Origin: a virus
Length of the DNA: 34,211 bases
IMG/VR virus record: IMGVR_UViG_3300034062_006947
Span: 1-34,211 of that record
Strand: one strand, 5' to 3'
How positions within the stretch are numbered: the first letter of the stretch is position 1; each line of letters starts with the position of its first letter. The translations under genes were made by a program, and so were the position numbers. Shown one piece after another: positions 12,308 to 31,608 of this stretch. The notes under the pieces were generated by a model. That model was not told where the DNA came from, made no database searches, and was given only the letters and a program-made list of their open reading frames with translations.

Positions 12308-12313
12308 TGTCAA
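12308..12313 (-). promoter_or_regulatory. TTGACA start-associated motif (holin)
   Basis: TTGACACC; the hexamer ends 13 nt upstream of ATG 12294. It directly follows the terminator-like hairpin at 12315-12335. Confidence 0.45.
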
Positions 12314-12314
12314 A

Positions 12315-12335
12315 AAGTATCGCTTAACGATACTT
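12315..12335 (-). terminator. Hairpin with T tail upstream of the holin gene
   Basis: A perfect 8-bp stem, AAGTATCG and CGATACTT, around a 5-nt loop. On the minus strand it is followed by TTTG, so it resembles a weak intrinsic terminator that would limit read-through from the tail operon into lysis genes. Confidence 0.55.
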
Positions 12336-12347
12336 GGCGGGTCAGTT

Positions 12348-12364
12348 GTAAAGTTTTCCTTTAC
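12348..12364 (-). other. Second small hairpin over the stop of the preceding gene
   Basis: GTAAAG and CTTTAC pair around a 5-nt loop and overlap the TAA at 12363-12361. With the hairpin 12 nt further on, it makes a double structure between the tail operon and the holin. Confidence 0.4.
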
Positions 12365-12522
12365 GACTGAAGCGAGGGCGCTTCTTCCGTCAACTGCCCC
12401 TCAATCGCCCGCGCCACCGGCAGGATCGCCGCCGCCGCGTTCAGCCCGCCGTGCTTGCAGGCCAGATCGAGACACTGCATGACCAACTTGGCCTGCTCTT
12501 CGGTAAGCGTGACGGTTCTCAT
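12361..12522 (-). CDS. 53-residue protein, unknown function
   Basis: An open frame from ATG 12522 (ATGA with the upstream stop) to TAA 12361. It starts MRTVTLTEEQAKLVMQCLDL, then ACKHGGLNAAAAILPVARAI. This is a short all-helical protein with a beta start, typical of small phage proteins encoded after the fibre genes. Its stop lies within a hairpin. No family recognised. Confidence 0.6.
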   Translation of the reverse strand: MRTVTLTEEQAKLVMQCLDLACKHGGLNAAAAILPVARAIEGQLTEEAPSLQS

Positions 12523-12860
12523 TGCAAAGTCACACTGCCGTCTTCATTGGCAACCATCGGTCGCAGGCCCGCGATCTCCTCCGGCTCAAGGAAGTCGGCA
12601 ACCGTCTTGCCCGCGAGCCGTGCCACCGCGTCAATGTGGCGGATGTTCTCCTCGGCGCTGCTCAAGAGGAGGTGGGCGTTGGTGCCCATGGCGGCGAGGA
12701 TTTCTTCGGGCGTGGCGTCGTTGTTGTTCCAGAAGTCGCTAAACATGCCCTTGTGCGCTTGCGCGCGGCTGTCGATCTGGGTGTTGAGTTGGCCGAGCAG
12801 TCCGAGCGCGATGCGCTGGGCGGCGGGCGGTTCCGTGGTTGGTAGGGTGATGAGGCTCAT
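12519..12860 (-). CDS. Phage protein downstream of the fibre genes, unknown function
   Basis: A 113-residue helical protein. It has an N-terminal Thr/Pro-rich lead, then GLLGQLNTQIDSRAQAHKGM, ATPEEILAAMG and ENIRHIDAVARLAG. No membrane segment or signal. The start at 12860 lies 5 nt after the fibre stop and lacks an SD. It could be a fibre-associated chaperone by position, which is only a guess. Confidence 0.5.
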   Translation of the reverse strand: MSLITLPTTEPPAAQRIALGLLGQLNTQIDSRAQAHKGMFSDFWNNNDATPEEILAAMGTNAHLLLSSAEENIRHIDAVARLAGKTVADFLEPEEIAGLRPMVANEDGSVTLQ

Positions 12861-12865
12861 AAAGT

Positions 12866-14170
12866 TTAGTCGGCTTCTCCGGCGAGGTAGTGAGCGACGA
12901 TGACAACGGCGCCGCCTGTAAAATTAGATCCAACAGCGGTCAGCGTGACTTCCTGCGCGGCGGTGAAGCACTCGATAGTGCCTGCCGTCCAGTCGCGATT
13001 GTCGCTGGATGTGTTGAGGGCAATGCCGATGTTGGCTCCCCAGCGGTCGGCGTCCGTGCCGTCACCGATGTCGTAGCCTGTGGCTCCAGTGATTGCAGTG
13101 GAGACGCGGGTGGTGAGGCCAACGAGGACCGCGCCGTCTGGGATCAAGCCTGTTGTGGTGGCGACAGACGCGCCGCTCAAGGCCGAGAGTGTGACGGCTT
13201 TGGTCTTGATCGCGAGGCGTTGATAATTTGTGCCGCTGGTGTAGGTGCCGTAGACGCGGTATTCTTGGGCGTTGGTGCCGTTGTATTGAGCAAAAACGCC
13301 AGCAGCATCACGGCGCAAATATACGTCTGCAGTAAATGCCGTAGTATCCGAGGAAATCCTAAACGAGCCAGACGAGCGGACGGCAAAGCCGTCATCACTG
13401 ATAAATGACGCTCCGCCGCCGCCTGCATTTGTTGAGTAGAAGTTGGCGTTAACTGCTCCATCGTCGCGGACGGCAAATATCTGTGTCGTGCCGCGGCGCA
13501 CTGTAAACACGTTCACAAAGTCCGTTGTGGTGGCGACTTTTCGCACGGTGAGGGTGGTGAAGGTGCCTGTAGTCCCGCTGATGGCGGCTGGCGTGGTGGA
13601 ACCGATGGCGGGCGGGGCGGCGAAGTCGGAGGTTAGGGCGATGGTGCCGCTGGCGTTGGGGATATTGATCACCTTGCTTGTCGTGATGTCCCCTTCCGGT
13701 CCTTTAAGCGTGATGCCGCCATTGATTGCGCCGAAGACGATTGAAGGAAAGCCGTCTCCCGTCACCCCGCCACCGAGGTCTACTGCATAAGTGTCGAGGT
13801 TCAGCTTGCCGCAGTTTACCACTCCTTCGCCGAAATAAATCTCATTTACGGGCGGTCCGTTTACGGTGACGCCTTGAAACGTCACTTGGTCGCTCGTGCC
13901 AAGGTCTTGATTGGCGTCCTGCGCCGCAGCGGTGCCCGCGTCGGTGATGGCAGAGAGGGTGTGGGTGTGGGAGGTTGAGGCCGCGCCCACATCTGCCGCC
14001 GCCAAGACAACCACGCCGGTCTGCCCATTAACGCTTTCGACATCGCCACCCCCGCCCTCGCCTGCCGGGCCTTGCGGGCCAGCGGGGCCGACGAGAGGGA
14101 TGGTGACCTCGACCTCGTTGCGGTGCGGGGTGCCGACGTAGGCTGTCGCGCTGTAGTATTGGCTGCTCAT
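12866..14170 (-). CDS. Tail fibre protein with collagen-like segment
   Basis: A 434-residue protein. Residues 27-37 carry Gly-x-y triplets (GPAGPQGPAG), followed by GGGGDVESVNGQTGVVVL, a motif common in phage fibres. Several HTHTLSAITDAG-like repeats and long Ser/Thr/Gly-rich beta regions follow. The C-terminal 110 residues (from GLIPDGAVLVGLTTRVSTAI to the end) form a compact domain with conserved GYDIGDGTDADRWG, likely a trimerising or receptor-binding tip. It should contact the host surface. Starts at ATG 14170 without an SD. Confidence 0.75.
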   Translation of the reverse strand: MSSQYYSATAYVGTPHRNEVEVTIPLVGPAGPQGPAGEGGGGDVESVNGQTGVVVLAAADVGAASTSHTHTLSAITDAGTAAAQDANQDLGTSDQVTFQGVTVNGPPVNEIYFGEGVVNCGKLNLDTYAVDLGGGVTGDGFPSIVFGAINGGITLKGPEGDITTSKVINIPNASGTIALTSDFAAPPAIGSTTPAAISGTTGTFTTLTVRKVATTTDFVNVFTVRRGTTQIFAVRDDGAVNANFYSTNAGGGGASFISDDGFAVRSSGSFRISSDTTAFTADVYLRRDAAGVFAQYNGTNAQEYRVYGTYTSGTNYQRLAIKTKAVTLSALSGASVATTTGLIPDGAVLVGLTTRVSTAITGATGYDIGDGTDADRWGANIGIALNTSSDNRDWTAGTIECFTAAQEVTLTAVGSNFTGGAVVIVAHYLAGEAD

Positions 14171-14174
14171 GGTT

Positions 14175-15895: not shown

Positions 15896-15899
15896 GACA

Positions 15900-16444: not shown

Positions 16445-16445
16445 A

Positions 16446-17402
16446 CTAAATGATGTCGGCGGAAAGGGTGGCGGTGGATTGGAACGTCTGGCGTTTGGTC
16501 GCGTTGCTGATTTCGACTTCCATGTAGACGTCCGTGGTGCCTGCCGCGACGAGGGCGGTGATCGCGGCAGTGTTGAGGTTGAGCGTGCCGAGGAGGCCGG
16601 GAGCTCCGAGGATGGTCGAGGCGGTGATGGCAACCGTGGGCATGTCGGCCCCGGCGTAGGCTCCGCCGTAGGTGAGCCGGTAGTCGTCGGGGGTGCCGAT
16701 GACGGTGATTTCTTGCGTGCTTGATCCGGCGGCCGAGGCCAAAGCGGCGGCGATCTCGGCAGGGCCGGTGCCCGCCTCCAGCGGGGATGTGATGTAGGCG
16801 GGGACGACGGCGGTGCCGCCGCCGGAGGCGACGGAGGCAGTCAATGCGGTGCCGCCTGCGGCGGAGGCGATCTTGAAACCGTCGCGCGAGCGGTCGCGGA
16901 CGAAGTAGACCGATCCGTTGCTGAAGCCGGAGGGCGTGGAAAATCCGGTGAGGGTCACGCTTTGGCCGTCGAGCAGGGCGTGGTAGGCGGCGGAAAACAC
17001 GCTGGCCGTGATGCTGCTCACGGTGATGTTGCGCGTCGGAAGGGAAAGCGAGTAGTAGCCGGTCGCCGGAGCGGGCGACATGTGGATGCGCTGGATTTCT
17101 GTCACGCCGGAGCCGCCGGTGATGGCAACCGAGGCGGTGATCGTGACGGTCGTCGTGAGGGCCGTGAAGGAGGTCACGGTCGTGGCCGGGGTCGTGGTGC
17201 CGAGGGCGAAATTCGCGGTGAGCGTGCTGTAATTGAGGTAGCGGTAGGGCGCGGAGAAATCTCCGGTCGGCTCCAAGAAGTAAAGTTCAATGTCCTCAAC
17301 ATCCTCGCGGAACACGGTCAGCCCGGCGGCGGGCAGCGTGCTGGTGGGCTCGGCGACGAATGTGCGACTGCCGGTGTCGAGGTAAAGTTTGCGGGCCTGC
17401 AT
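16446..17402 (-). CDS. Tail tip/baseplate structural protein
   Basis: A 318-residue protein, Thr/Ala/Ser/Gly-rich and almost all beta. It begins MQARKLYLDTGSRTFVAEP and contains an FREDVEDIELYFLEP segment and a later DDYRLTYGGAYAGADMP. No catalytic motif. Located among baseplate genes, so a structural tail role is likely. The ATG at 17402 follows a GCAGG and a TTGACA motif 16 nt upstream. Confidence 0.6.
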   Translation of the reverse strand: MQARKLYLDTGSRTFVAEPTSTLPAAGLTVFREDVEDIELYFLEPTGDFSAPYRYLNYSTLTANFALGTTTPATTVTSFTALTTTVTITASVAITGGSGVTEIQRIHMSPAPATGYYSLSLPTRNITVSSITASVFSAAYHALLDGQSVTLTGFSTPSGFSNGSVYFVRDRSRDGFKIASAAGGTALTASVASGGGTAVVPAYITSPLEAGTGPAEIAAALASAAGSSTQEITVIGTPDDYRLTYGGAYAGADMPTVAITASTILGAPGLLGTLNLNTAAITALVAAGTTDVYMEVEISNATKRQTFQSTATLSADII

Positions 17403-17418
17403 CCTGCGAGATGACAGG

Positions 17419-17424
17419 TGTCAA
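17419..17424 (-). promoter_or_regulatory. TTGACA start-associated motif (tail tip gene)
   Basis: TTGACACC in the 26-nt gap between two genes; the hexamer ends 16 nt upstream of ATG 17402. Confidence 0.45.
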
Positions 17425-17428
17425 AGGG

Positions 17429-17653: not shown

Positions 17654-17655
17654 GG

Positions 17656-18381
17656 CTAAAAAACGGTGATTTCAACAGCATCATTGAAGACGTAATTATA
17701 CAGTGGCGTGCTGTTGTCGTTGAATTCTTTGAATCCGCCAAATGCTCCTGAGTCTTGCGCGTCTGGGAAGTCGTAACTAATAGACGCTTCAAAGCGTTGC
17801 CACCTATCAGTGTCAGTCGGATTATCCCCGTGAAAAACAATGAGACCACTGACAGTTCCGGTTATGCCTCCAATGCCGTAGGGGTAATTGTTATCAGTAA
17901 ATTCCCATCGGCAAGGGCCTGTTCTATAAACAGTTAGTTCAAAACCGCCGCCACTCATTCCTAAAATGTCTGGAAAATCATCAGTCAGAAAATTGTTGAG
18001 GCATGTGCCGAGCGACACGGGAGCGAAGTCAATGGCAGTTGACCATTGAGTGTTGGTCGAGTCGTAGATTCCGATATAGCCCATGTTTCCAAAGACAAAA
18101 TTGGGGTCGGTATAGTAAGCCGTAAACCCGTCATACCATCCGTCTGGATTGTCGCCAATCTGCGGGGCGGTAAGCGGGGGATCGAGTTTGGTAAATTCGC
18201 CCTCGTTCCACGTTTCGGGCAAGTCTTCGTATTGCAGAAATTCTGTCTCGTAAAGAGTGTTGGCATCGTAGAGGCAGCAAGCCTCGGACACGCAGCAGGT
18301 GCAAGAGACGAGCCGCTCGCCTTCGACGATCTTGGTGATGGCGCGGCGGGTGCCGGATTCGTCAACGGTGGTGGCGATCAT
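17656..18381 (-). CDS. Tail structural protein with Cys cluster
   Basis: A 241-residue protein. The N-terminal beta segment (IATTVDESGTRRAITKIVEG) is followed by a CTCCVSEACC cluster near residues 28-37. The rest is Asp/Tyr/Gly-rich (YDGFTAYYTDPNFVFG), possibly a carbohydrate-binding-like beta sandwich. Precedes the other Cys-rich gene; together they may form a disulfide- or metal-stabilised tail tip. No known family was recognised. Confidence 0.5.
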   Translation of the reverse strand: MIATTVDESGTRRAITKIVEGERLVSCTCCVSEACCLYDANTLYETEFLQYEDLPETWNEGEFTKLDPPLTAPQIGDNPDGWYDGFTAYYTDPNFVFGNMGYIGIYDSTNTQWSTAIDFAPVSLGTCLNNFLTDDFPDILGMSGGGFELTVYRTGPCRWEFTDNNYPYGIGGITGTVSGLIVFHGDNPTDTDRWQRFEASISYDFPDAQDSGAFGGFKEFNDNSTPLYNYVFNDAVEITVF

Positions 18382-18761: not shown

Positions 18762-18763
18762 GG

Positions 18764-19486: not shown

Positions 19487-19489
19487 GGG

Positions 19490-21517
19490 TTAGGAGTAGA
19501 CGAGGGCGGTTTGCGGGAGCTTCTCGTCGATCTTGGGAAGGTGTTTTTCAATTTTTTCCAAGATGTCGGCAATGTCCTTTGCCATGTCGGATTTGCCGCC
19601 TTTTGCGCCGTGCTTGGCGCGCGCTTCTTCTTCGGCGCGGGCGCGTTCCTCGGGGGTCTTGGCCATGTCCTGCACGTCCAAGTTGTATTTCTCGGCCAGG
19701 CGCTTTTCTTCCTCGGCCACGCGGCGCTCGATGCGTCCGCGAAGACGCTCGGCTGCTCCGAATTGTCCGGCTTGCTCGAAGCGGTCAGCACGTTCGGCGG
19801 CTGAACGGTTGCGGTTCTCCATGCGGGCCAGATCGGCGCGGATGTTGGCGGCCGTCTTGTCCACGCTGAAGCGTTCTTTGGTTCGCTCGATGGCGAGGCC
19901 GGTGCTGCTAAGGCGTGAGGTGGCAGGGTCAAAGTTGACTGCTTGGCTGCCGCGTTCTCGGAGCGCGGCGCCGAAGCCGGTGACGGGGTCAAAGGGTTTG
20001 TTTGAGCCACCACCTCCACCACCGCGAGTTCCCGCCTTGGCGCGGGCCTCGGCTTCCTGGCGGGCGATGCGTTCGGCAGGGGTTTCGGCGGCGGCCGCAG
20101 CGGCAGTTCCGGCCACGCGGGGATTGACCGTGGCCGCCGCTTGTCCGGCCCCGGAAAGTTCTGCTTTTAGGCGCGCTGCTTGGTCGGCCGTGTTCTTGAC
20201 CCCCTGCTCCATGGCAAAGAGAGGATTTTGCATGTTTTCCTCGTATGCCGCTTTGAACTCCTGCGGGATGCCGGCGAAAACTTCTTTGGCTTGGTCGCCA
20301 ACAAGGGCGACTTGCGCGCCGATGCCATAGGTCAACATTTCAATAGATCGCGCCGCGGTCTCGGCCTCGTAGCGGAACGTGTCGGCCATACCAGAACGGC
20401 CGATGGCGTCCATGAAATCGGCCAGTGCGCCGTAAAGGACTTCCCGAAAATAGTTGGCGGCAATCGTAAAGCTGCTCTTCAGCAAATGCAGCAAGGCCCC
20501 GTCACTGCTAAACATTTTGCCGACAGACGCTGAGACGGTTTCAATAGCGGCCGATGCCGCGGCGACGATGGTGTTGATCGCATTGAGCGCCGTGTCTTTG
20601 GCCGTGGCAAACATGAGTGACAGCCCTTCGCCGAATTCGCCTTCGGTAATCGCCTTAATGGCGGTCTCGATTTGACTGAGCGCCGTGCTGAGTTTGAAGG
20701 TCTCGGTGAACCATGCCAGGGTGGATGCCGCGTATTCGGAGAGCTTGGCCCCGAAGCCGGCGGCGTCGATGTTGGCCAAGCGGGTGGTCACGTCGACCAG
20801 GGCCGGGGCGATCTGCTCGAGCAGGCCCGCGGCGAACTCTTTGCCCTTTTCGCCGATGGCGGCGAAGTTGTCGCCGATCGTGTCGAAGGACGCCGTGACG
20901 CGGTCCATGACTTGCGGCGTGCTGCCCAGTTGTTTGCGCGCAATATCCAGTTCCACGCCCATGGCGCGGAGCAGTGGCAGGAGTTCGCCGCCGCTGCGGC
21001 CGAGCAGCTGCATGGCAATGGCACTGCGGTCGGAGTCGTTGCCGACTTTTTGCAAAGCGGCAGCGACAGCCTGAAGTTGCTCGGTCGGGGTAAGTTCTTT
21101 GAGCCGCTCGAGGTTGAGCCCGAGTTTGCCAAAGGCTTCGGCCTGCTCCTTGCCGCCCTCGCCTGCTTCGACGATGGCCCGCTGGAGGCGGTTGATGGTC
21201 TGGCCGACCGCGTCGGCTCCGGCGCCAGCGTTCTCGAAAGCGCGCTGGAGGATAGCCAAGTTGCCGGCCGTCTCGCCGGTGCGGGCCGAGAGGTCGTTAA
21301 GCTGTCCGCCCATGGCGATGGCGGCGTTGAAAGATTGGACGGCGGCACGGACGCCGAGGAAAGCCGCGCCGATTCCGACCACGGCCATGGCGATCTTGCC
21401 GAAGTGGCGGGAGATGCCGGCGGCCGCGCCTTGCGCGATGTTCTGGAGGTTCTTCGCGCCGCTGCTGAAGCCAACGGTGTTGAGCGAGGCGTTAAACCTG
21501 ATGGATTCTCCGGCCAT
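19490..21517 (-). CDS. Tape measure protein
   Basis: A 675-residue protein. After SLNTVGFSSGAKNLQN there is a hydrophobic segment (AMAVVGIGAAFLGVRAAV, about 42-60) and a long helical region with ARTGETAGNLAILQRAFENA and QLLGRSGGELLPLLRAMG, characteristic of phage tape measures. Helices with Ala-rich hydrophobic stretches follow, then a Gly-rich linker near 500 and a charged coiled-coil C-terminus. It sets tail length and is ejected with DNA. At about 0.15 nm per residue, the tail would be near 100 nm. Preceded by TTGACA with 16-nt spacing. Confidence 0.8.
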   Translation of the reverse strand: MAGESIRFNASLNTVGFSSGAKNLQNIAQGAAAGISRHFGKIAMAVVGIGAAFLGVRAAVQSFNAAIAMGGQLNDLSARTGETAGNLAILQRAFENAGAGADAVGQTINRLQRAIVEAGEGGKEQAEAFGKLGLNLERLKELTPTEQLQAVAAALQKVGNDSDRSAIAMQLLGRSGGELLPLLRAMGVELDIARKQLGSTPQVMDRVTASFDTIGDNFAAIGEKGKEFAAGLLEQIAPALVDVTTRLANIDAAGFGAKLSEYAASTLAWFTETFKLSTALSQIETAIKAITEGEFGEGLSLMFATAKDTALNAINTIVAAASAAIETVSASVGKMFSSDGALLHLLKSSFTIAANYFREVLYGALADFMDAIGRSGMADTFRYEAETAARSIEMLTYGIGAQVALVGDQAKEVFAGIPQEFKAAYEENMQNPLFAMEQGVKNTADQAARLKAELSGAGQAAATVNPRVAGTAAAAAAETPAERIARQEAEARAKAGTRGGGGGGSNKPFDPVTGFGAALRERGSQAVNFDPATSRLSSTGLAIERTKERFSVDKTAANIRADLARMENRNRSAAERADRFEQAGQFGAAERLRGRIERRVAEEEKRLAEKYNLDVQDMAKTPEERARAEEEARAKHGAKGGKSDMAKDIADILEKIEKHLPKIDEKLPQTALVYS

Positions 21518-21533: not shown

Positions 21534-21539
21534 TGTCAA
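21534..21539 (-). promoter_or_regulatory. TTGACA start-associated motif (tape measure)
   Basis: The hexamer ends 16 nt upstream of ATG 21517, in the 25-nt gap after the preceding stop. No GGAGG is present. Confidence 0.45.
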
Positions 21540-21542: not shown

Positions 21543-22442
21543 TTAGACGTATTTCTTGTATTGCCGTCCGCTGGCCGAAGTTCTCATCTCGAAAACGCCT
21601 CCACGGCGGCCGGTGTTGAACGAGGGCCCCGCGGATGCGCCGGCGCTGACCGAGGCTTGTGATTGCTGACTTGATGCCGCGGATGAACCAACCGTGGCCA
21701 GCCCTGGGTAACGGTCCAACGTCTTTTTGATCTTGCCCTCTGCCGCCAATTTGACCGCGCGGCTGAAGTAATTGGCGCGGGCATTGAGCGCCTTTCGGAA
21801 AGCGGCGCCCGCCTGCGCCCAGCGGTTGAGGTAGCTGAGGTTGTTGACAAAGCCGACCTCGTATTTGTCGCCGCTTCCTTTGCTTGTGACTTCAATGAGT
21901 TCCCGCATCTGGCCTTTTTTGTGGTGGGCTGCGGTGCGGAGGTAGCCAGGCGCTTTGACCGGGATGCCCAGCCCTTCGCCGATCTTGACGAACATCGAGG
22001 CGGCGAGGCCGCGGGCCTTTTGTTTGTTGACCAGGGATTTGGCGCGCTGCTCTTGGATCTGGCGCCACAGCCAGGAGGGATACGCTTTGGGCTCGTTGGC
22101 GCGGGCGAAGTAGTAGACGAGCCGGCCGTTCTTGCCCTTGGCCCGACGCTGGGCGGCGCGGGTCTGGGCGCGGGCCACGTCGGCTGCCGAGTAGGTCTTG
22201 CCGCTGCGGCTCTCGGGGCCGGCGTAGTTGAAGGTGTATTGGGCGCCGGGGCGTTTGTCGTGGCTGGCTTGAATGCTTTTGACCGTGGCCTTCTTGGTCA
22301 TCTTGACCGCACTGGTTAGCATGGCCGAGAGCTCCGCTTTCATTACGGTCTCGAAGTCCTTGCCGCTGAGTTTGCGGAGGTCTTGGATCGCGAAATGAAA
22401 GCGGCGGGCGGCTTTCTCGTCGGGCGTAACCTTGACTTGCAC
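21543..22442 (-). CDS. Basic tail-assembly-region protein
   Basis: A 299-residue, strongly basic protein between the tail chaperones and the tape measure. It starts at GTG 22442, one nt after the chaperone stop. Contains FHFAIQDLRKLSGKDFETVM, an AQTRAAQRRAKGKNGR stretch, LVNKQKARGLAASMFVKIG and a Ser/Gln/Ala-rich tail ending GRQYKKYV. By position it may be a minor tail or tail-completion protein. No motif decides. Confidence 0.5.
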   Translation of the reverse strand: MQVKVTPDEKAARRFHFAIQDLRKLSGKDFETVMKAELSAMLTSAVKMTKKATVKSIQASHDKRPGAQYTFNYAGPESRSGKTYSAADVARAQTRAAQRRAKGKNGRLVYYFARANEPKAYPSWLWRQIQEQRAKSLVNKQKARGLAASMFVKIGEGLGIPVKAPGYLRTAAHHKKGQMRELIEVTSKGSGDKYEVGFVNNLSYLNRWAQAGAAFRKALNARANYFSRAVKLAAEGKIKKTLDRYPGLATVGSSAASSQQSQASVSAGASAGPSFNTGRRGGVFEMRTSASGRQYKKYV

Positions 22443-22443: not shown

Positions 22444-22677
22444 CTACACGCCGCCTGTCAGCGCCTCGGCCAGCAGGGCGTCGATGTTGCGCGCGCCGGT
22501 CTCGCCGCTGTCGGACCACCGGGGCTTGCGGCCGCCGACGATGTCGTCCCAGAGCAGGAGCTGGTTAAGTGCCGCCAAAGGCAAATGCCAGATGGCCTGC
22601 TCGAGGGAGATGCCGTATTTGGCCACGCGGGCGGCGAGGCACAGTTGCCACGCCGGGCGGGCCGTCAGGCTTTTGGG
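22444..22677 (-). CDS. Tail assembly chaperone, frameshift extension (gpT-like)
   Basis: The -1 frame relative to the upstream chaperone, joined at the CCCAAAA site. The extension adds 75 residues (SLTARPAWQLCLAARVAKYG, then LEQAIWHLPLAALNQL, WDDIVGGRKPRW) for a fused product of 207. The fused form binds the tape measure while the short form coats it, as in lambda gpG/gpGT. No good independent start codon and SD are present at the head of this frame, which supports frameshifting. Its stop lies one nt before the next gene. Confidence 0.7.
   Translation of the reverse strand, partial: PKSLTARPAWQLCLAARVAKYGISLEQAIWHLPLAALNQLLLWDDIVGGRKPRWSDSGETGARNIDALLAEALTGGV
22456..22461 (-). promoter_or_regulatory. 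CTGACA variant of the start-associated motif
   Basis: CTGACA ends 13 nt upstream of GTG 22442 and lies inside the end of the chaperone extension. First base differs from the main motif. Confidence 0.3.
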
Positions 22678-23066
22678 CCGTCGCCCTCCGCGGGTTCCAC
22701 CGAGGCGCTTTGGGTGATGGTTGCGGCGACGCGCTCCATCTGGCCGGTGATCCACGGCGTGAAGGCGAACATGTCGGCCGGTGCCTGCTTGTCCATCCAC
22801 TCGTAAATGTCTGCCTTGAGGTCGTCGATGGTGGCGATGCGGCGGCGGATGTCCATGATCGGCAGCGAGTGCAGATACACGAATGAGTAGACCGCGAAGG
22901 CGTAGTCGCCGTCGGGCTCGCCGGTGACAAAGCTGTTTTTCAGCCGCACCAGCAGGCTCCAAGTGGCGGCCGTGACAGGCCGCAGGGTGATGCCGTTGAC
23001 TTGTTCTTCGCTTGCTAAGGCCGAGACCTCAAGCAGCGACTCTCTTTTTTCTGGGTCGATGTCCAT
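22665..23066 (-). CDS. Tail assembly chaperone (gpG-like)
   Basis: A 133-residue protein, mostly helical: ESLLEVSALASEEQV, VTAATWSLLVRLKNSF, YAFAVYSFVYLHSLP and TIDDLKADIYEWMD. It lies two genes upstream of the tape measure and one after the tail-tube region, the standard site for tail chaperones. Ends DGPKA just after a CCCAAAA slippery heptamer. The ATG at 23066 is preceded by TTGACA at 16 nt spacing. Confidence 0.7.
   Translation of the reverse strand: MDIDPEKRESLLEVSALASEEQVNGITLRPVTAATWSLLVRLKNSFVTGEPDGDYAFAVYSFVYLHSLPIMDIRRRIATIDDLKADIYEWMDKQAPADMFAFTPWITGQMERVAATITQSASVEPAEGDGPKA
22671..22677 (-). other. -1 ribosomal frameshift site CCCAAAA
   Basis: Read in the zero frame as C-CCA-AAA-GCC-TGA: a canonical X-XXY-YYZ heptamer, 4 nt before the chaperone stop. 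Slipping back one base gives CCC-AAA-AGC and opens the 75-codon extension. Tail chaperone genes of long-tailed phages commonly use such sites. Confidence 0.75.
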
Positions 23067-23082: not shown

Positions 23083-23088
23083 TGTCAA
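23083..23088 (-). promoter_or_regulatory. TTGACA start-associated motif (tail chaperone)
   Basis: The hexamer ends 16 nt upstream of ATG 23066. Its internal TGA is the stop codon of the preceding gene. Confidence 0.45.
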
Positions 23089-23518: not shown

Positions 23519-23866
23519 TTAGAAGGCGTGGTTGGTCGCGCCGATGGTGACTTGCTGGAAGTCGTTCGGGGCGCGGCTGACGGCAACGCTGTCGACGTAG
23601 AAAGTGCCGGTGACGCCGGCGAGGCCCGCGGTGGCGTTGGCCAGGGAAATGGACGCGCCGATCGTGGGGATGGTGCCTTTGAGGTAGCCGCTCATCGAGG
23701 CGACCGATTTCTTGCCGTGGTAGGCCGCGGCGACCATGTCGCCGTCTTCGTCGACGACAATGGTTTTGTCGCTGTCGGAGGTCTGCGAGAAGCTGGTGAA
23801 AACGGCGACGGTTTCCGAAGATCCGCCGAAGGTGATGCTGGTGAGTCCGATGACGGTGGCTGCCAT
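23519..23866 (-). CDS. Major tail (tube) protein candidate
   Basis: A 115-residue, Thr/Ser/Ala/Gly-rich, all-beta protein: TVIGLTSITFGGSSETVAVF, KTIVVDEDGDMVAAAY, KGTIPTIGASISLANATAG and VSRAPNDFQQVTIGATNH. The small size and beta character fit phage tail-tube monomers, and it lies upstream of the chaperones with a hairpin behind it, as abundant structural genes often do. The identification is inference from position and composition. TTGACA lies 16 nt upstream of ATG 23866. Confidence 0.6.
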   Translation of the reverse strand: MAATVIGLTSITFGGSSETVAVFTSFSQTSDSDKTIVVDEDGDMVAAAYHGKKSVASMSGYLKGTIPTIGASISLANATAGLAGVTGTFYVDSVAVSRAPNDFQQVTIGATNHAF

Positions 23867-23882
23867 AATACTTCGGCCGCGT

Positions 23883-23888
23883 TGTCAA
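23883..23888 (-). promoter_or_regulatory. TTGACA start-associated motif (tail tube)
   Basis: The hexamer ends 16 nt upstream of ATG 23866, in the 27-nt gap after the preceding TAG. Confidence 0.45.
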
Positions 23889-23893
23889 CCTCG

Positions 23894-24100: not shown

Positions 24101-24509
24101 AGGTGACAGGGTCGAACTCGAGGCCCCAGACTTTGACCAGGTCTTCGTCGTTCAAGTCGGTGAGGAACTGGTCGGCGTCGACCAGGTCGGACAGGGTTTT
24201 CCAGAGGGACTTAAATCCCGGAGCGCCTTCGTCGGTGTCGTCGGGGTCGGGTAGGCGGCGTTCGTTGCGCTCGGCGTCGGGCGTTTCGTCGGCCGCGGTG
24301 ACCAGGGTAATCGTCAGGCGACAGTTCCAGGTCTGCATCCCGCGCACCACCTCATCGAGCTTCTCGGCGCGCACGGTGATCTGCGGCAGGGTGTCTTCGT
24401 CGGATTCGTCGGCGCTGACTATGCGCACGTCATCAAGGGCCGCGGCGTTTTCGAGGACGGCAACTGTGGCCCGCTCGAGGGACTCTTCGATAGAATAGAC
24501 GGTGCTCAT
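24024..24509 (-). CDS. Tail completion/terminator-like protein
   Basis: A 161-residue acidic protein placed between a head-completion candidate and the tube, the usual place for a tail terminator. It begins MSTVYSIEESLERATVAVLE and has a beta-rich middle (QITVRAEKLDEVVR, CRLTITLVTAADE) and an Asp-rich loop near the centre. A tail terminator fold is helix plus sheet like this, but sequence alone does not prove it. The start at 24509 is ATGA-coupled. Confidence 0.5.
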   Translation of the reverse strand: MSTVYSIEESLERATVAVLENAAALDDVRIVSADESDEDTLPQITVRAEKLDEVVRGMQTWNCRLTITLVTAADETPDAERNERRLPDPDDTDEGAPGFKSLWKTLSDLVDADQFLTDLNDEDLVKVWGLEFDPVTYENEPRSFRRSLNARLWCNEAYPAA

Positions 24510-24811
24510 CGTTGCTCGGGGCTTTGCAGGGTTAGGTCAATGGAGGCAACGTCGGTGTCGATTCCGACGATGCGGTAGCGGCGGCCGCAGTATTTGACCA
24601 CGCCGCCCATGCGGAACTCGGGGGCACCGGCTTTCAAGACGGTGGCGGTGAGGCTGCGTTGGGCCTCGAAGCCGCCCTCACCCAAGGCGTTGGCGTAGGT
24701 TTCCTCGCCGACCACGGCGTCGTAGCATCGCTCGCGGTATTCGATCTGGTCGGCGATGGTGCCGACGGCCTCGGTGCAGCCGGCGGTGTAGGCTTGGGCG
24801 AACTGGGACAT
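24506..24811 (-). CDS. Head-tail connector/completion protein candidate
   Basis: A 101-residue protein. A helical N-terminus (FAQAYTAGCTEAVGTIADQI) is followed by beta strands (AQRSLTATVLKAG, MGGVVKYCGRRYRIVGIDTD, ASIDLTLQSP). The strand-rich end with G-x-x-Y-R-I-x-G resembles head closure proteins. The role is inferred from position between head and tail genes. CTGACA lies 14 nt upstream of ATG 24811. Confidence 0.5.
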   Translation of the reverse strand: MSQFAQAYTAGCTEAVGTIADQIEYRERCYDAVVGEETYANALGEGGFEAQRSLTATVLKAGAPEFRMGGVVKYCGRRYRIVGIDTDVASIDLTLQSPEQR

Positions 24812-25741
24812 TTATCCGAGGGCGGTGTCAGCGGCGGCGAAGATGTCGGCCCAGACGGCTTCGGGGGTCATGGTGGAGCGGACGAGGTTTTGCGCGGCGC
24901 TGGCCATTTTCTGGTGGGCGGTGAAATCAAAGCCGCGGGCCCAGGCGGTGAGGGTTTCGGCGGGGATGCCGGGGCGCATGGCAATGCGGTGGATTTGGTC
25001 GATGAACCAGTTGTTGCCGGGGTCAAGCGGCTGGCCGACTTCAACCAGCAGCGCGCCGGTGGCGGCGGCTTCGTAGAGGCGGATGCTGTGGCCGCGGCCA
25101 TTGGCGGGCGGGCAGAGGACGGCGGCGTAGCGGGCGTAGGCGTCGGCGACTTCTTGCACGGTGTCGACGGAGCGCGGGATGTTGAGGATGTCGAGGGCGC
25201 CGGCGTCGCAGAAGGCTTCGAGGACACGGCGTCGCTCGGCATACATGCCGGGGACATAGTCGCGGGTGTGGCCGATGAAGCAGAATTTCTGGATGCGCTC
25301 GGCCAGCGGTTTGCCCGGAATGAAAACATCGTCGGCAACCCACATGCGCGAGGTGAATGCTGGCCAGCCCATGGCGCGGAAGGCTTGGGTGTCGCAATCT
25401 TGGGTGCAGACGTAGAGGTCGGCCCAGCGGCGCTCTTGCTCGAAGGCGGCGTAGCCGGGGAACGGGTTGCCGAAAGTGTGCTCGCTGATGCAAGCGATGA
25501 TGGGTTTGCCGAGGGCGCGGATCTGGTCGTGGTGCTGGCGCAGGAAGCCTTGGAATTGGAAGGGAGAGATGAGGCAGATGGCGTCGGAGTCGCTTTCGCG
25601 CAGCATTTGCATGACGGCGGCGTGGTCTTGATCCATGGGGATGACGCGGCGGGCCGTGCCGGTGAGGCGAAGCTGCGACATGGCGGCCCAGGCGAAGGAT
25701 GCGGGCTCGGCGGCGAGGAAAAGGAAGTCGCCGGTCCTCAT
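24812..25741 (-). CDS. GT4-like glycosyltransferase
   Basis: A 309-residue protein from ATG 25741 (ATGA). The first half is a Rossmann-like donor domain (MRTGDFLFLAAEPASFAWAA, CLISPFQFQGFL). The second carries QKFCFIGHTRDYVPGMYAER, then RLYEAAATGALLVEVGQ, the conserved region of GT-B enzymes related to Glyco_trans_1_2 in which the Glu of RLYEAAA contacts the sugar nucleotide. No signal or membrane segment. It is coupled to a two-domain glycosyltransferase upstream, and the pair sits between the capsid and connector genes. Substrate unknown. Confidence 0.7.
   Translation of the reverse strand: MRTGDFLFLAAEPASFAWAAMSQLRLTGTARRVIPMDQDHAAVMQMLRESDSDAICLISPFQFQGFLRQHHDQIRALGKPIIACISEHTFGNPFPGYAAFEQERRWADLYVCTQDCDTQAFRAMGWPAFTSRMWVADDVFIPGKPLAERIQKFCFIGHTRDYVPGMYAERRRVLEAFCDAGALDILNIPRSVDTVQEVADAYARYAAVLCPPANGRGHSIRLYEAAATGALLVEVGQPLDPGNNWFIDQIHRIAMRPGIPAETLTAWARGFDFTAHQKMASAAQNLVRSTMTPEAVWADIFAAADTALG
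24826..24831 (-). promoter_or_regulatory. CTGACA variant of the start-associated motif (connector gene)
   Basis: CTGACACC lies inside the end of the glycosyltransferase gene; the hexamer ends 14 nt upstream of ATG 24811. Confidence 0.3.
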
Positions 25742-27522
25742 GCGTGCTCGGCAAATTTGGCCTCGATCTCGGGGGCAAACTCCGGGTTGGCCTCGAGGTA
25801 GTCGGGGTTGCGCTGGCAGAAGAGGTCGAAGCCTTGGCGGTAATTCTCCAGGCTGTTGCTGCGGCGGGTGGTCTCGTGGCCTTCGGGATCGTGGAGGTGC
25901 GGGATGACGAGGTCGGAGCAGACGAGCCATTTGTTTTTCATGGCACGCCAACTCAACTCGGTATCGGCGAACATGCTGCGGTAGCCGTCGTGGTAGAGGC
26001 CGCCATCGTAGCCGAGCGCGGTCACCGCGGCGCGGGTGAGGCAGGGCGTGCAGATGAGGCCGTCTTGGCGGCGGCTGTCGCCGATCTGGAGCATGGCGGG
26101 GCGGTCAAGGCGGGAACCGAAGGCGTCGATGATGCGTTGGTCCCAGTGGAGCGGCGGCGCGGCGAGGTCGTCTTGGATGTAAAGCAGGATCTGGCCGGCG
26201 CTGGCGCGGGCGGCGGCATTGGTGGCGGCGGCGCAGTTGGTCTGGTCGAGGCGGCCGGCGGGGGATGTAGCGTGGCGGAAGCGTCCGAGGATGGGAAGGT
26301 CGGGGCTGTCGGCTTCCAGGCCGAAGATGTGCTCGATGCGTTCGGCGTTTTTGGCTGTGTCGAGGAAGGTCTTGCGGACGCGGGCGGCTTGCTCGGGGCG
26401 GCCGCGGGTCGGGTGGATGAGGCTGATGCTGGGGGCGGTCTGTGCGGCGAGGCGGGCGGTTTCGATGCCGTCGGCCTCGGCGGTGCGGCCGGTCATGCGG
26501 AGGAGTTGGGTCCAAAGGGTCTCGCCGGCCCAGCCGTAGAGGCCGTCGCGGTGGGTCCAAGGTTTGTCGATGGGACGCGGGAGGGCCATCATGCTGCGGA
26601 GGTAGGCTTCGGCGCGGACGATGTCTCCGAGGTCGAGGTGGAGGGCGCCGAGCAGGGCCAGGGCTTCGCGGCGGTTGGGCGCGGTGCGGTAGGCGCTATG
26701 TAGCGCGGTCATCATAGCGGTGTGCTCGGCGGTGCCGGTCTCGATGATGTCGGGGCGGGCCATCTCGGCGATGTTGAGGCAGAGCTCGTAGCGTTCGGTC
26801 GGCTCGAGGCGCGGATGGGCCAGGGCCTTCTTGGCCATGGCCATGGCGTCGTTCTTGCGGCCGGCGCCCATATACTCGCCATGCAGATGATAAATTTCGC
26901 TCAGGGTGCGGTCGGCTTCGGGGATGCTTTCGAGGATGGTCAGGTTGCGGTTGCTGCCTTGCTTGGGCTCGTCGTCGGGGAGGTGGACGACGACGGGGGC
27001 GTCGGACTTGGCGACTTTGGCGCCGGGGACGAGTTGGAAGTTCTCGTGGATCTTGTTGATCCATTTGCCGCGGTCGCGACGGACGAGGCGCTCGCGGAGG
27101 TTGTGGGCGATGCCGCGCCCGGCAACGTCGTGGTAGAGGGCGAAGGCGTCGAAGTCGGCGGCGAACTTGGTGAAGAGCTCGTGGAGGGCGGGCGCGAAGT
27201 TGTCGCCGGGGACGTCGTCGGCGTCGATCCAGAGGGCCCAGGGTTTGCTGGCCAGGTCGAAGGACCGCTGGCGGGCGGCGCCGAAGTCGTCGACGTGGGG
27301 CCAATCGTTGCCCGGAGCGTTGGCGTAGACATCGTAGGTGGCGCCGTGCTTCTGGCAGACCTCGGCGACTTTGAGGCTCTTGGCCTCGGCTCCGGTGGCG
27401 TGGACGACGCACATCTCGCTGACGGCGGGGGCGAACTGGGTGAGCGCGCGGTCGAGGCGCTTGGGCTCGTTGCCGACGATGACGCAAAGCGCGATCTGCT
27501 CGCGCGGGCTGATAATCTCCAT
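25738..27522 (-). CDS. Two-domain GT2 glycosyltransferase with helical repeat middle
   Basis: A 594-residue protein from ATG 27522. Residues 8-200 are a GT-A domain: ALCVIVGNEPKRLDRAL, and ALWIDADDVP with the metal-binding D100-x-D102. Residues 205-350 are helix pairs resembling TPR repeats (AMAMAKKALAHP, ALALLGALHLDLGDIVRAEAYL). Residues 365-545 are a second GT2 domain (ISLIHPTRGRPEQA, LLYIQDDL with Asp451-452, and ADTELSW). Such bifunctional enzymes transfer two sugars in sequence. Target may be a virion protein or host surface glycan. The gene starts just past a terminator and has TTGACA 17 nt upstream. Confidence 0.75.
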   Translation of the reverse strand: MEIISPREQIALCVIVGNEPKRLDRALTQFAPAVSEMCVVHATGAEAKSLKVAEVCQKHGATYDVYANAPGNDWPHVDDFGAARQRSFDLASKPWALWIDADDVPGDNFAPALHELFTKFAADFDAFALYHDVAGRGIAHNLRERLVRRDRGKWINKIHENFQLVPGAKVAKSDAPVVVHLPDDEPKQGSNRNLTILESIPEADRTLSEIYHLHGEYMGAGRKNDAMAMAKKALAHPRLEPTERYELCLNIAEMARPDIIETGTAEHTAMMTALHSAYRTAPNRREALALLGALHLDLGDIVRAEAYLRSMMALPRPIDKPWTHRDGLYGWAGETLWTQLLRMTGRTAEADGIETARLAAQTAPSISLIHPTRGRPEQAARVRKTFLDTAKNAERIEHIFGLEADSPDLPILGRFRHATSPAGRLDQTNCAAATNAAARASAGQILLYIQDDLAAPPLHWDQRIIDAFGSRLDRPAMLQIGDSRRQDGLICTPCLTRAAVTALGYDGGLYHDGYRSMFADTELSWRAMKNKWLVCSDLVIPHLHDPEGHETTRRSNSLENYRQGFDLFCQRNPDYLEANPEFAPEIEAKFAEHA

Positions 27523-27539
27523 CTCGGGCGGTGGAGGTT

Positions 27540-27545
27540 TGTCAA
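27540..27545 (-). promoter_or_regulatory. TTGACA start-associated motif (glycosyltransferase)
   Basis: The hexamer ends 17 nt upstream of ATG 27522. It lies 10 nt beyond the capsid terminator hairpin, so this is the only visible initiation signal for the two-gene cassette. Confidence 0.45.
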
Positions 27546-27555
27546 CAAAGCAGAA

Positions 27556-27575
27556 CCCCCGGCGGTGGCCGGGGG
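27556..27575 (-). terminator. Hairpin terminator after the capsid gene
   Basis: CCCCCGGC-loop-GCCGGGGG, an 8-bp all-GC stem, followed on the minus strand by a T-rich TTCTGCTTTG. It starts 29 nt past the capsid stop. It would separate heavy capsid transcription from the glycosyltransferase genes. Confidence 0.7.
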
Positions 27576-27604
27576 CTTGCTGTTGCGGCTGAGGCTGGGA
27601 CGAA

Positions 27605-28498: not shown

Positions 28499-28516
28499 AA
28501 GAGTGGTTGGTGAGGG

Positions 28517-28888
28517 TTAGGAGTAAAAGGTCTTGAGGATCTCCGCTTTGTTGGCGCGGAAGAACTGGGTGGCTTCGGGGCCGTCGAGGGCGGCGAATTT
28601 CTGCGCGGCGGTCAACTCGGGCACGACCGGGGTGGCGGCGGTGTCGATGCCGACGGAGGCGACGATGGCGGCGGCTTGTTCGCCGGCGCTTTTCTGCTCG
28701 GCGCGGAGGGTGGCGATCTCCTCGTCTTTGCTGGCGCTCTCGGCGGCGAGGCGCTCAACTTCGGCTTTGAGGGTTTCGAGTTCCTTGGCGAGGTCTTCGG
28801 CGGCTTGGGCCTGGACGGCTTCGGCGGCGTTCTTGGCGTCGAGGTCGGCCTGGAGGGCGTCGACTTTGGCCTGGAGTTCGGAGTTCAT
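28517..28888 (-). CDS. Nested scaffold protein (internal start)
   Basis: ATG 28888 (Met224 of the protease) has GGAGG 5 nt upstream, one of the few good ribosome-binding sites in the late region, and TTGACA at 17 nt. It would make a 123-residue protein that is just the helical scaffold and its C-terminal capsid-binding part. The arrangement is the same as lambda C with nested Nu3. Confidence 0.65.
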   Translation of the reverse strand: MNSELQAKVDALQADLDAKNAAEAVQAQAAEDLAKELETLKAEVERLAAESASKDEEIATLRAEQKSAGEQAAAIVASVGIDTAATPVVPELTAAQKFAALDGPEATQFFRANKAEILKTFYS

Positions 28889-29557
28889 GTTATCCTCCGC
28901 GGCGGTGTCAACCGGGGCGGCGGGCTCGGGTGCGGGTTTGCTGGCCATAGTGTTTTGAAATTGGGCGAAGCGTGCGCGGGCCTGCTCGGGGGTGACGGAG
29001 GCGGCGGCGGCGATGGGGGCGTCGATCTCGTCAACGAAGCCGTGCTCGAGGGCTTCGGTGGCGTCCATCCAGGTCTCGTCGTCCATCATTTGCTCGATGG
29101 CGGCGCGGGGCTGGCCGGTCTTGCGGACGTAGGCGTTGACGAGGGTGGCCTTGAGTTTGTCGAGGACGTCGGCTTCTTTGCGGAGGTCGTCGGCGTCGCC
29201 CATGGTCATGCTCCAGGGATTGTGGATCATTAGGAGGGCGTTCTCGGCGATGCGGGTCTCTTCGCCGGCCATGGCAATGACGGAGGCCATGGAGGCGGCG
29301 AGGCCGTCGATGTGGACGGTCAGTCCGCCTTTGTGGCGCTTGAGGGCATTGAAGATGGCCGCTCCTTCGATGACGCTGCCGCCGACGGAGTTGATGCGGA
29401 GGTCGATGTGCTGGCCTTTGAGCTTTTTGAGATCCGCGGCGAATTGCTTGGCAGTGACTCCTCCGAAGCCGATCTCATCGTAAATAGAAACCTCAACGCT
29501 TTCGTCGGTGTCGCGGTCGTCGGTCGGAGAAATTGCATACCAGCTGCGCGGGTTCAT
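28517..29557 (-). CDS. ClpP-type prohead protease fused to scaffold domain
   Basis: A 346-residue protein. Residues 20-185 are a ClpP/S14-type serine protease: INSVGGSVIEGAAIFNAL, then GLAASMAS with Ser89, LLMIHNPW with His112, and an acidic residue near 160. Residues 190-225 are an Ala/Pro linker. Residues 225-346 are a charged helix (SELQAKVDALQADLDAKNAA) and a compact tail ending FFRANKAEILKTFYS, typical of scaffold. The protease processes the prohead while the scaffold guides shell assembly. The ATG at 29557 overlaps the portal stop (ATGA). Confidence 0.8.
   Translation of the reverse strand: MNPRSWYAISPTDDRDTDESVEVSIYDEIGFGGVTAKQFAADLKKLKGQHIDLRINSVGGSVIEGAAIFNALKRHKGGLTVHIDGLAASMASVIAMAGEETRIAENALLMIHNPWSMTMGDADDLRKEADVLDKLKATLVNAYVRKTGQPRAAIEQMMDDETWMDATEALEHGFVDEIDAPIAAAASVTPEQARARFAQFQNTMASKPAPEPAAPVDTAAEDNMNSELQAKVDALQADLDAKNAAEAVQAQAAEDLAKELETLKAEVERLAAESASKDEEIATLRAEQKSAGEQAAAIVASVGIDTAATPVVPELTAAQKFAALDGPEATQFFRANKAEILKTFYS
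28906..28911 (-). promoter_or_regulatory. TTGACA start-associated motif (nested scaffold)
   Basis: TTGACACC inside the protease coding region, ending 17 nt upstream of the internal ATG 28888. Its presence at an internal start strengthens both the motif and the nested gene. Confidence 0.5.
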
Positions 29558-31272
29558 TGCTCGGGGGTTGGTGTCAATTCGTCCGCGTCGTTGTCGTTGG
29601 AGTCGTCGCCACTGGCGTCGCCAGCATTGGGATCGGCTTGCAGTCCGCTTGAAAGAGTGATCGGGCTACGGACAGGATTCTCTACCCACTCCTGCTCAAC
29701 TTGCGGCGGCACTTGAGGCAGGCGCATTTGTTCGCGGACAGCGCGCTCGTCTTCAACGTTTGGCGTAATGACGCCAGCGCGGACGGCCACGCCGTAGGTG
29801 TCGAGTGTGTCTTTCACGGGATTGCTGGAAGGATTCGGATTGAAAGTTGCGATTTGGTCAGGGTGGAGTTGGTATTCGGCGGCGAGCTCGGCGAGGAACT
29901 TGGCTTCGACGGCGCGCTGGCGGAGTTGGTCTTTCCACTCGAAGCCTCGCTCGGAGTAATCTTCGGCGTAGGTGCGGAGGCCGGCGCGGACGTCGTTCAA
30001 GTTGGCGGCGGCTTCGCGGCCGTAGTCGACGGAAGCGGCGGCGGGGCGTTGCCATTCGACCTTCCACCAGTTCGGGTTCTGCGGGAGCAGGCCGCGTTGC
30101 ATGGCGATGGTGATGACATGGGCCCAGACGCGGGAGCAGAGGCGGTCGATAAGCAGGGCTTGGCGTTGCTCGAAGGTGCGTTGGGCGCGGACCAAGACGG
30201 CGCGGAGGGCGGCGCCGCCGGCGTCGGCGGGACGGGCGGCGAATTCCCAGGGGACGCCGAGGTTCAAGCAGACTTCGCGGAGGAGGACGTCACAAAACTC
30301 GCGGAAGTTTTGTGACGGGCGGTTTGAGGTCCACGAGATGAGATCCTCGCCCATGGAGAGGCGTGGGATGGCGCCGCCGGCATTGCCGAGGCTTTCGACG
30401 GTGATCTCGTTGGTGCCTTCGGTGTTGATGCTGGTGCTGCCTTCGCCGAAAAAATCGGCGCCTTGGGGGTTGGACGATTTGATCGCCAGGGCGATATAGC
30501 TGGAGATCTTGAGGGCCATCTTCTCGAACGAAACGGCGTCGCCGACATCGCGGAGGTGGTTGACCGAGGGGGCGAGCGGGGTGACGTAACGTAGCTCGTC
30601 GCCCTGGCTGGCTTCGCCGACGTGGATGAGTTGCTGGGCGGGAATGTCCTCGAAGCGTTGCGCGGGATCGACGCCGTCGCCGATGAGGTGGCGGTAGAAG
30701 ATGGGGCGCATCTGGGCGTTGACGACCACGCCGTCGATGATGTTCTGGCCGCCTTCGCGAGCGGTGGGGTTCGACGGCTCGTAGACGGAGGAGCGGGCGT
30801 CGCCGATGCGGTGGGCGAGGATGAGCTGGAGCGCGGGGTAGCCGGTGGTCTGGACGGCGGTGCGGAAGAAGACTTCTCCGTCGCGGTCGATGGCGACGCT
30901 GGCGATGCGTTGCATTTCGCGCCAGGTGTAGCGGCCTTGCACGTCGGCCACGCGGCTCCATTGCTCGAAAAAGGTCTCGGCCGCGGTGTCCCAAGCTTCG
31001 TCGCCGCTGCGGGCTTGGGGGCGGATGCCGGAGCCGACGGAGTAGCGGGCTTTCTCGTTGACGAGTCCGCGGAGAAAGGGGGCGTTGTTGTAGAGCCAGC
31101 GCGAGAGTTTCATCAGGCGCTCGCGGTCGGCGCCGCTGACGTCGATGTGGCTGTCGACGGCGACGGCGTTATAGGGAAAGCGGCGCTGGATCGAAGGCCG
31201 GGCGGCTTCGTAGCTTTGGGCCTTGGGGTTGAAGGCTTTGGTCAAAAGTTTCCAGCGGTCGGCAATCTTCAT
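29554..31272 (-). CDS. Portal protein (lambda gpB-type)
   Basis: A 572-residue protein. SRWLYNNAPFLRGLVNEKAR, SGIRPQARSGDEAWDTAAE and FEQWSRVADVQGRYTWREMQ are the N-terminal signature of lambda-type portals. DGVVVNAQMRPIFYRH and a C-terminal region with CLNLGVPWEFAARPADAGGA, the conserved stem segment, follow. It forms the dodecameric DNA channel at one capsid vertex. The acidic C-terminus (residues 545-572) may be flexible. ATG 31272 overlaps the upstream stop. Confidence 0.85.
   Translation of the reverse strand: MKIADRWKLLTKAFNPKAQSYEAARPSIQRRFPYNAVAVDSHIDVSGADRERLMKLSRWLYNNAPFLRGLVNEKARYSVGSGIRPQARSGDEAWDTAAETFFEQWSRVADVQGRYTWREMQRIASVAIDRDGEVFFRTAVQTTGYPALQLILAHRIGDARSSVYEPSNPTAREGGQNIIDGVVVNAQMRPIFYRHLIGDGVDPAQRFEDIPAQQLIHVGEASQGDELRYVTPLAPSVNHLRDVGDAVSFEKMALKISSYIALAIKSSNPQGADFFGEGSTSINTEGTNEITVESLGNAGGAIPRLSMGEDLISWTSNRPSQNFREFCDVLLREVCLNLGVPWEFAARPADAGGAALRAVLVRAQRTFEQRQALLIDRLCSRVWAHVITIAMQRGLLPQNPNWWKVEWQRPAAASVDYGREAAANLNDVRAGLRTYAEDYSERGFEWKDQLRQRAVEAKFLAELAAEYQLHPDQIATFNPNPSSNPVKDTLDTYGVAVRAGVITPNVEDERAVREQMRLPQVPPQVEQEWVENPVRSPITLSSGLQADPNAGDASGDDSNDNDADELTPTPEQ
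29572..29577 (-). promoter_or_regulatory. TTGACA start-associated motif (protease)
   Basis: TTGACACC lies in the last codons of the portal gene; the hexamer ends 14 nt upstream of ATG 29557. Confidence 0.45.
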
Positions 31273-31589
31273 GTCATCGGGTAGTTGAAAGCGGCGATCA
31301 TCGTTTTCTGCGGCTTGCGGGTCAGATACGCCTCAAGCTGCGTGTCGGTCATGTCTTTGATGAGGGCCCAGCAGGACAGGGCTAACTCGGCGACGGTTGA
31401 GGCCGTCATGTCGGGCGGCAGGGAGTAGGAGAAGGATTTGCCGCCCATGCTGGCGGAAACGAGGAGGCGGCCGCCTTCTTTGGACGCGCTGTATTGGTTG
31501 GCGCCGATGGTTTCGAGGGCGGTGATGGTTTTCGCTGCTGACTTTCCGGAGGCTAACCAAGCTGAGAAAATGAACGCGCGCGGAGACAC
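31269..31589 (-). CDS. Small protein between terminase and portal (head-tail joining candidate)
   Basis: A 106-residue protein from GTG 31589. It starts MSPRAFIFSAWLASGKSAAK and ends TRKPQKTMIAAFNYPMT. The middle is beta-rich (GRLLVSASMGGKSFSYSLPP) followed by a helix. Lambda-type phages encode the joining protein gpW exactly here, but this protein is longer and does not show the gpW sequence. A joining function is possible by place only. TTGACA lies 13 nt upstream. Confidence 0.55.
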   Translation of the reverse strand: MSPRAFIFSAWLASGKSAAKTITALETIGANQYSASKEGGRLLVSASMGGKSFSYSLPPDMTASTVAELALSCWALIKDMTDTQLEAYLTRKPQKTMIAAFNYPMT

Positions 31590-31602
31590 GCGCTTTGGTC
31601 GG

Positions 31603-31608
31603 TGTCAA
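31603..31608 (-). promoter_or_regulatory. TTGACA start-associated motif (joining protein gene)
   Basis: TTGACACC; the hexamer ends 13 nt upstream of GTG 31589. Its TGA is the stop codon of the large terminase gene. Confidence 0.45.

Follow-up and report, generated by a model that had tools for sequence, protein, structure and literature searches.

How are the starts of a phage's late genes found where a Shine-Dalgarno (SD) sequence is usually absent, and what is the hexamer TTGACA doing at a nearly constant distance in front of so many of them? Both questions are raised by the 34.2-kb virus record IMGVR_UViG_3300034062_006947, the whole of which we call the window. A preliminary description of this DNA had noticed that TTGACA is associated with starts, those of head, tail, lysis and accessory genes, and the association is borne out here: the genes are mainly late ones, joined by a single accessory gene that lies on the opposite strand. 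We lean towards the view that the motif, which in related phages takes the form TTTGACA, is a sequence-specific, non-SD translation-start element acting at the level of the messenger RNA (mRNA); the action on RNA and the part in initiation are what we infer from the patterns below, and on balance we judge them probable. The position of the element, its strand and orientation, its gene specificity, the selection on its nucleotides, its preference for uncoupled starts and its lack of promoter geometry are direct observations.

Placement of TTGACA in the window

The minus strand carries exactly nine copies of TTGACA, the nine that had been listed and no others, and every one of them ends 13–17 nucleotides (nt) before an ATG or GTG. 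Read from the head genes towards the lysis cassette, the distances are 13, 14, 17, 17, 16, 16, 16, 16 and 13 nt; the earlier count of four copies at exactly 16 nt was correct, as was the report that five of the nine extend as TTGACACC. A random minus-strand position has a probability of 0.058 of lying 13–17 nt before an ATG or GTG that opens at least 57 codons. Under this model the placement of all nine copies has a p of about 7e-12, and TTGACA ranks first among all hexamers, with none of the others on this strand near it; when only called gene starts are counted, eight of the nine are so placed (p = 1.5e-17). The copy number is ordinary: the two strands together hold 13 copies, where shuffled sequence gives 11.7 ± 3.5. 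Placement, and not copy number, is the non-random feature of TTGACA in the window.

Two parts of the earlier account needed amendment. On the plus strand it had listed a single copy, at 9465, which does end 16 nt before a start, but that strand carries four copies, and those at 5223, 7807 and 21844 do not fit the start spacing. The variant CTGACA had been placed before starts at three positions; of its five minus-strand copies, two stand before genuine genes, 24826 at 14 nt and 22456 at 13 nt, the one at 34144 precedes only open reading frames of 20–44 codons and is doubtful, and those at 17811 and 11828 lie away from starts.

Enrichment and retention in related phages

A related set of 80 IMG/VR contigs was retrieved by terminase, and 747 non-redundant gene starts were picked in it with no regard to whether they had the motif. 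At 82 of these starts TTGACA lies 13–17 nt upstream, against 0.5 expected, and in 11 larger contigs, with both strands considered, 104 of 154 copies stand at that spacing (log10 p = -98). One-base variants occur there at about the chance level, save for CTGACA (7 against 0.5 expected) and a weak recurrence of TTGAAA, TTGACG and TTGACT, at three to four each among the 747 starts. When sites are aligned, 71% have a T directly before the hexamer and the flanks show little further conservation, which gives the consensus TTTGACA; on the upstream side, pairwise divergence is back at background two bases outside TTTGACA, the hexamer itself being fixed by the choice of sites. Three contigs carry tandem copies of TTGACA, 15 nt apart, before one gene (G006 31994/32009, G007 22791/22806 and G008 19395/19410).

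Retention was assessed gene by gene, with orthologues located by protein, at identities down to about 42%, and the motif checked only afterwards. Loss of the motif at orthologous genes of related phages had been named in advance as the outcome that would tell against it; the orthologues have kept it. Among the head genes (sites are on the minus strand unless stated), the copy at 31603..31608, 13 nt before the GTG of a gpW-like head-tail joining candidate of 106 amino acids (aa; 31269-31589, named from position and size only), recurs in 22/22 orthologues. The copy at 29572..29577, within the 3′ end of the portal gene and 14 nt before the ATG of the ClpP-type head protease (28517-29557), recurs in 32/34, and that at 28906..28911, 17 nt before an in-frame internal ATG opening a nested 123-aa scaffold candidate (28517-28888), recurs in 9/9 and is present in nearly all protease homologues. 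Retention is also complete at the 318-aa late gene (16446-17402; TTGACA at 17419..17424, 16 nt before ATG; 10/10), the 115-aa late gene (23519-23866; 23883..23888, 16 nt before ATG; 7/7), the 57-aa lysis-cassette gene upstream of the peptidase M15 endolysin (12121-12294; 12308..12313, 13 nt before ATG, with a terminator-like hairpin 5′ of it; 14/14) and, on the opposite strand, the 244-codon metallophosphoesterase gene (9487-10221; plus-strand 9465..9470, 16 nt before GTG; 16/16). The 133-aa gene (22665-23066; 23083..23088, 16 nt before ATG, the TGA of the motif being the stop of the upstream gene) keeps it in 3/4 orthologues, the glycosyltransferase gene (25738-27522; 27540..27545, 17 nt before ATG, with a terminator-like hairpin directly 5′) in 12/24 and the tape measure gene (19490-21517; 21534..21539, 16 nt before ATG) in 1/3. 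Where the window has CTGACA, orthologues keep it as CTGACA: 4/4 for the 101-aa gene (24506-24811; 24826..24831, before ATG) and 3/3 for the 299-aa gene (21543-22442; 22456..22461, before GTG). Window genes that lack the motif have orthologues without TTGACA (terminase 0/64, capsid 0/9, exonuclease 0/10, integrase 0/4), the exceptions being portal (7/29 with TTGACA) and small terminase (2/10).

Presence of the motif has a sharp edge in identity. Phages retrieved via integrase, or via metallophosphoesterase at an identity of at least 69%, all have it, and those whose metallophosphoesterase is at 51% identity or less have it only at about the chance level. Such an edge is expected for a single host lineage; a trait of the phage lineage would look alike. 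Among control phages with related head genes, the count of TTGACA at 13–17 nt was 0/14 in Roseobacter phage CRP-811, 1/3 in Synechococcus phage S-CBS3 and 0/7 in Acidithiobacillus phage AcaML1, and marine Verrucomicrobia phage P8625 gave 0/20.

Nested starts and selection on nucleotides

The motif had also been reported before an internal start, and this is correct: in the protease genes TTGACA stands 14, 15 or 17 nt before an internal ATG that is in frame with the head protease, the arrangement of a nested, Nu3-like scaffold gene. The shorter product is a scaffold candidate by gene position only. Several relatives have two nested starts in the protease gene, each with its own TTGACA. Within the protease coding sequence the motif encodes Phe/Val/Ile-Asp-x in one frame; in L048 and L049 it lies in another frame, where it encodes Leu-Thr-Ala, and the spacing is shifted to 15. 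Since the motif is kept in two protease reading frames with adjusted spacing, selection acts on the nucleotides, and conservation of the protein cannot explain it.

Absence of promoter geometry

TTGACA had been said not to be an ordinary promoter of the gene that follows, and two findings agree: no -10 box accompanies it, and the first codons of the gene evolve as coding sequence. No -10-like hexamer is enriched at any spacing after TTGACA. At a spacer of 17, the match to TATAAT averages 1.05 of 6, with no site reaching at least 5, and the positions where the -10 box of a leaderless promoter would lie (-12 to -7) are GC-rich, with just 1.9 of 6 bases A or T. In codons 2–10 after TTGACA starts, differences amount to 0.42 at third positions against 0.15 and 0.11 at the others; therefore, the start codon is used and lies within the mRNA. 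A sigma70 promoter has its RNA start upstream of the start codon, and the geometry here, which is indirect evidence, puts it inside the gene. Because there is no -10 box and the codons after the start evolve as coding sequence, TTGACA is not the -35 box of the following gene, and both a sigma70 promoter and a leaderless promoter were rejected in view of the absent -10, the GC-rich region and the coding evolution.

Coupling, leaders and the use of SD sequences

Starts were classed as uncoupled when they lie at least 10 nt after the previous stop, and as coupled when they overlap or closely follow it. TTGACA precedes 80 of 298 uncoupled starts and 9 of 273 coupled ones (p = 4e-16), and SD-like sites have the opposite bias, toward coupled starts. 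Only 25 of 134 sites have GGAG, GAGG or AGGA between the motif and the start. Many uncoupled starts that lack TTGACA, for example at early genes, follow an A/C-rich leader of the type GAACACAGAAC-ATG; leaders ending in GAACACAGAAC before ATG are found at 4336-5250 in the window and in L029, L030, L041, L060 and others. There appear to be three start devices in these phages: coupling, which may or may not involve SD, the A/C-rich leader, and TTTGACA. The idea that the TGA of TTGACA is a reinitiation stop was rejected; it holds at a few sites (23083, 31603), and the TGA is out of frame at the nested and portal/protease sites.

Weighing the explanations

Four findings together favour a role in translation initiation: the contrast between coupled and uncoupled starts, the in-frame starts nested in the protease gene, the lack of a -10 box and the coding evolution right after the start. 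We envision that TTTGACA would lie on a polycistronic phage mRNA, 13–17 nt before starts that mostly could not rely on a ribosome from the preceding gene, among them those nested in the protease gene, and that it would recruit or position the initiating 30S subunit where an SD sequence and an open leader are usually absent. Its partner might be a part of 16S ribosomal RNA (rRNA) other than the classic anti-SD, a protein of the ribosome (bS1 or bS21, for instance), or an RNA-binding protein of phage or host. More tentatively, and as a proposal slightly more apt to fail than to hold, the element may be a ribosome-recruitment signal unlike SD: a strict hexamer, some 15 nt ahead of the start, that is recognised by pairing with another region of 16S rRNA or by an RNA-binding protein, and used lineage-wide in freshwater phages and perhaps also by their host.

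Several observations weigh against a translational element. The capsid gene, presumably the most expressed, has an A/C-rich leader in place of the motif, and the motif is rare at early genes. The motif region is GC-rich, and its predicted RNA structure is no more open than that of same-composition controls; unusually open RNA was rejected as an explanation. The coupling bias may be due in part to coding constraint on overlapping genes. In many phages a terminator-like hairpin stands directly 5′ of the motif of the glycosyltransferase gene, and in the window the lysis gene has one as well. The one at 27546-27580 (minus strand), 3′ of the capsid gene and adjoining TTGACA, is strong (CCCCCGGC/GCCGGGGG with a T-rich tail) and has equivalents in L006, L010, L035, L040, G005 and G024; such hairpins could suit the beginning of a new transcription unit. 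In some relatives (L011, L014, L018, L056, L075 and L053), moreover, the TTGACA of the first late gene lies within an inverted repeat, GTTCACC...GGTGAAC or GTTAACC-TTTGACA-GGTTAAC.

The hairpins count in favour of a transcription element, as do the identity of TTGACA with the sigma70 -35 consensus and the P8625 copies 30 nt before four starts, which fit leaderless sigma70 promoters. An unusual polymerase or sigma factor would read TTGACA, and leaderless RNA would begin at or near the start codon. We consider this unlikely: canonical spacing would begin the RNA 13–17 nt inside the gene, yet codons 2–10 evolve as coding; no -10-like hexamer is enriched and the -12 to -7 region is GC-rich; and none of the scanned proteins was recognised as a phage RNA polymerase. 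About as improbable is mRNA processing, in which a host or phage endoribonuclease would cleave UUGACA to give short-leader or near-leaderless downstream mRNAs, although it is compatible with most of the facts that support a translation-start element. The strict sequence, the restriction to the sense strand and the presence inside coding sequence and before nested starts would all be accounted for, leader structure would be irrelevant once the RNA was cut, and sequence-specific RNases are used by phages and toxins (T4 RegB cuts at GGAG and MazF at ACA). Cleavage would, however, destroy the messages of protease and portal, inside which the motif lies, a cut site has no obvious need of a spacing of 13–17 nt or of avoiding coupled starts, and no candidate RNase was found, though none was sought. 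The inverted repeats at first late genes would suit a DNA site bound by a late regulator of the phage, or a signal in DNA structure, but the flanks are mostly unconserved beyond the T at -1 and the strict orientation and start spacing are hard to reconcile with an operator, and we give this reading very little weight. Chance or composition, for which the ordinary total copy number speaks, is of negligible probability, being ruled out by the positional statistics (7e-12 in the window, 1e-98 in the 11 contigs) and opposed by retention in orthologues and absence in control phages.

The phage and its likely host

The window encodes a GpA-type terminase, a lambda-type portal, a ClpP-type protease, a major head protein and a tape measure, a peptidase M15 endolysin accompanied by small lysis genes, an integrase, and functions in recombination and replication, a set that identifies a temperate tailed phage. 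The first 25 kb have no close relative among 50,697 phage records. Going by IMG sample numbers, the phage and its relatives presumably come from freshwater lakes. P8625, whose host is a Puniceicoccales strain, is the best isolate match for the capsid (E 1e-16) and the portal (E 6e-37), and a scarcity of SD sequences has been reported for some Verrucomicrobia (PMC10783764); for these reasons a freshwater verrucomicrobium is a plausible host. The terminase does not point the same way: better matches to it are found elsewhere, and the P8625 terminase is just 22% identical. Scans of genome contigs aimed at host identification found no relative, and 16S signature scans of viral contigs found no verrucomicrobial host DNA.

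P8625 (L084) has TTGACA exactly 30 nt before four ATG starts (5412, 10736, 15558 and 22406) and 35 nt before a fifth; across P8625 and 39 relatives, leaders are A-rich and TTGACA is enriched about 28–34 nt from the start. The copies at 30 nt are probably -35 boxes of regulated, leaderless or near-leaderless promoters, and these phages rule out the motif as a general trait of all Verrucomicrobia phages. At some of the four sites a TATCCA...TGGATA-like inverted repeat follows TTGACA.

Just upstream of the integrase gene of the window, 9313-9381 (minus strand) resembles the 3′ half of a serine tRNA, with a T-arm GTGGGTTCGAATCCCAC and an acceptor end CCTTCCGCCA, and is likely the attP core. In L027, L029 and L043, a GGGGGTTCAAACCCCCCGCCTCCACC-like sequence resembling a tRNA T-arm and acceptor end lies just before the TTGACA upstream of the protease gene.

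Comparison with known systems

How ribosomes find starts without SD is still an open question in several phyla, and the known alternatives are mostly loose biases in composition. A strict hexamer that divergent phages keep at the same genes is a defined element, open to mutation and testing; it would help to call starts and assign hosts in a large group of uncultured lake phages, where the nested scaffold genes otherwise escape notice. No description of this motif was found in the open-access full text searched.

As in lambda C/Nu3, the head protease gene has an in-frame internal start that would yield a scaffold-like protein; a difference from lambda is that TTGACA marks such starts. The hexamer is identical to the sigma70 -35 box, from which it differs in having no -10 partner and in that RNA would begin inside the gene. 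With an SD site it shares a fixed distance to the start, mRNA sense and gene-by-gene use, whereas TTTGACA is not complementary to the CCUCC anti-SD core, lies farther upstream and is strict in sequence. Among Bacteroidota, non-SD signals consist of an A-rich stretch at -14 to -11 and Kozak-like A-3/A-6 (PMC6847099); these likewise replace SD where it is scarce and lie at a similar upstream position, but they are loose A-rich biases, unlike a strict hexamer in a GC-rich context.

The preliminary description had likened the motif to the start-associated sequences (SAS) of mycobacteriophages, and the likeness stands as far as position and patterning go. In cluster K, SAS and extended SAS (ESAS) have the consensus GGGATAGGAGCCC, from which they deviate in no more than 2 positions, and occur near starts, mostly outside the structural module (PMC12699233). 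In both cases a short conserved motif of unproven function recurs at many starts of one phage group, with inverted repeats at some sites (PMC12699233). TTTGACA, in contrast, lies 13–17 nt from the start and lacks both an SD core and any other conserved flank, and most of its sites belong to head, tail and lysis genes; GGGATAGGAGCCC itself was not scanned for, but it differs from TTTGACA, and membership in the cluster K SAS family is rejected. By position and pattern, the TTTGACA element belongs with start-associated sequences, and it is neither a cluster K SAS nor an SD site.

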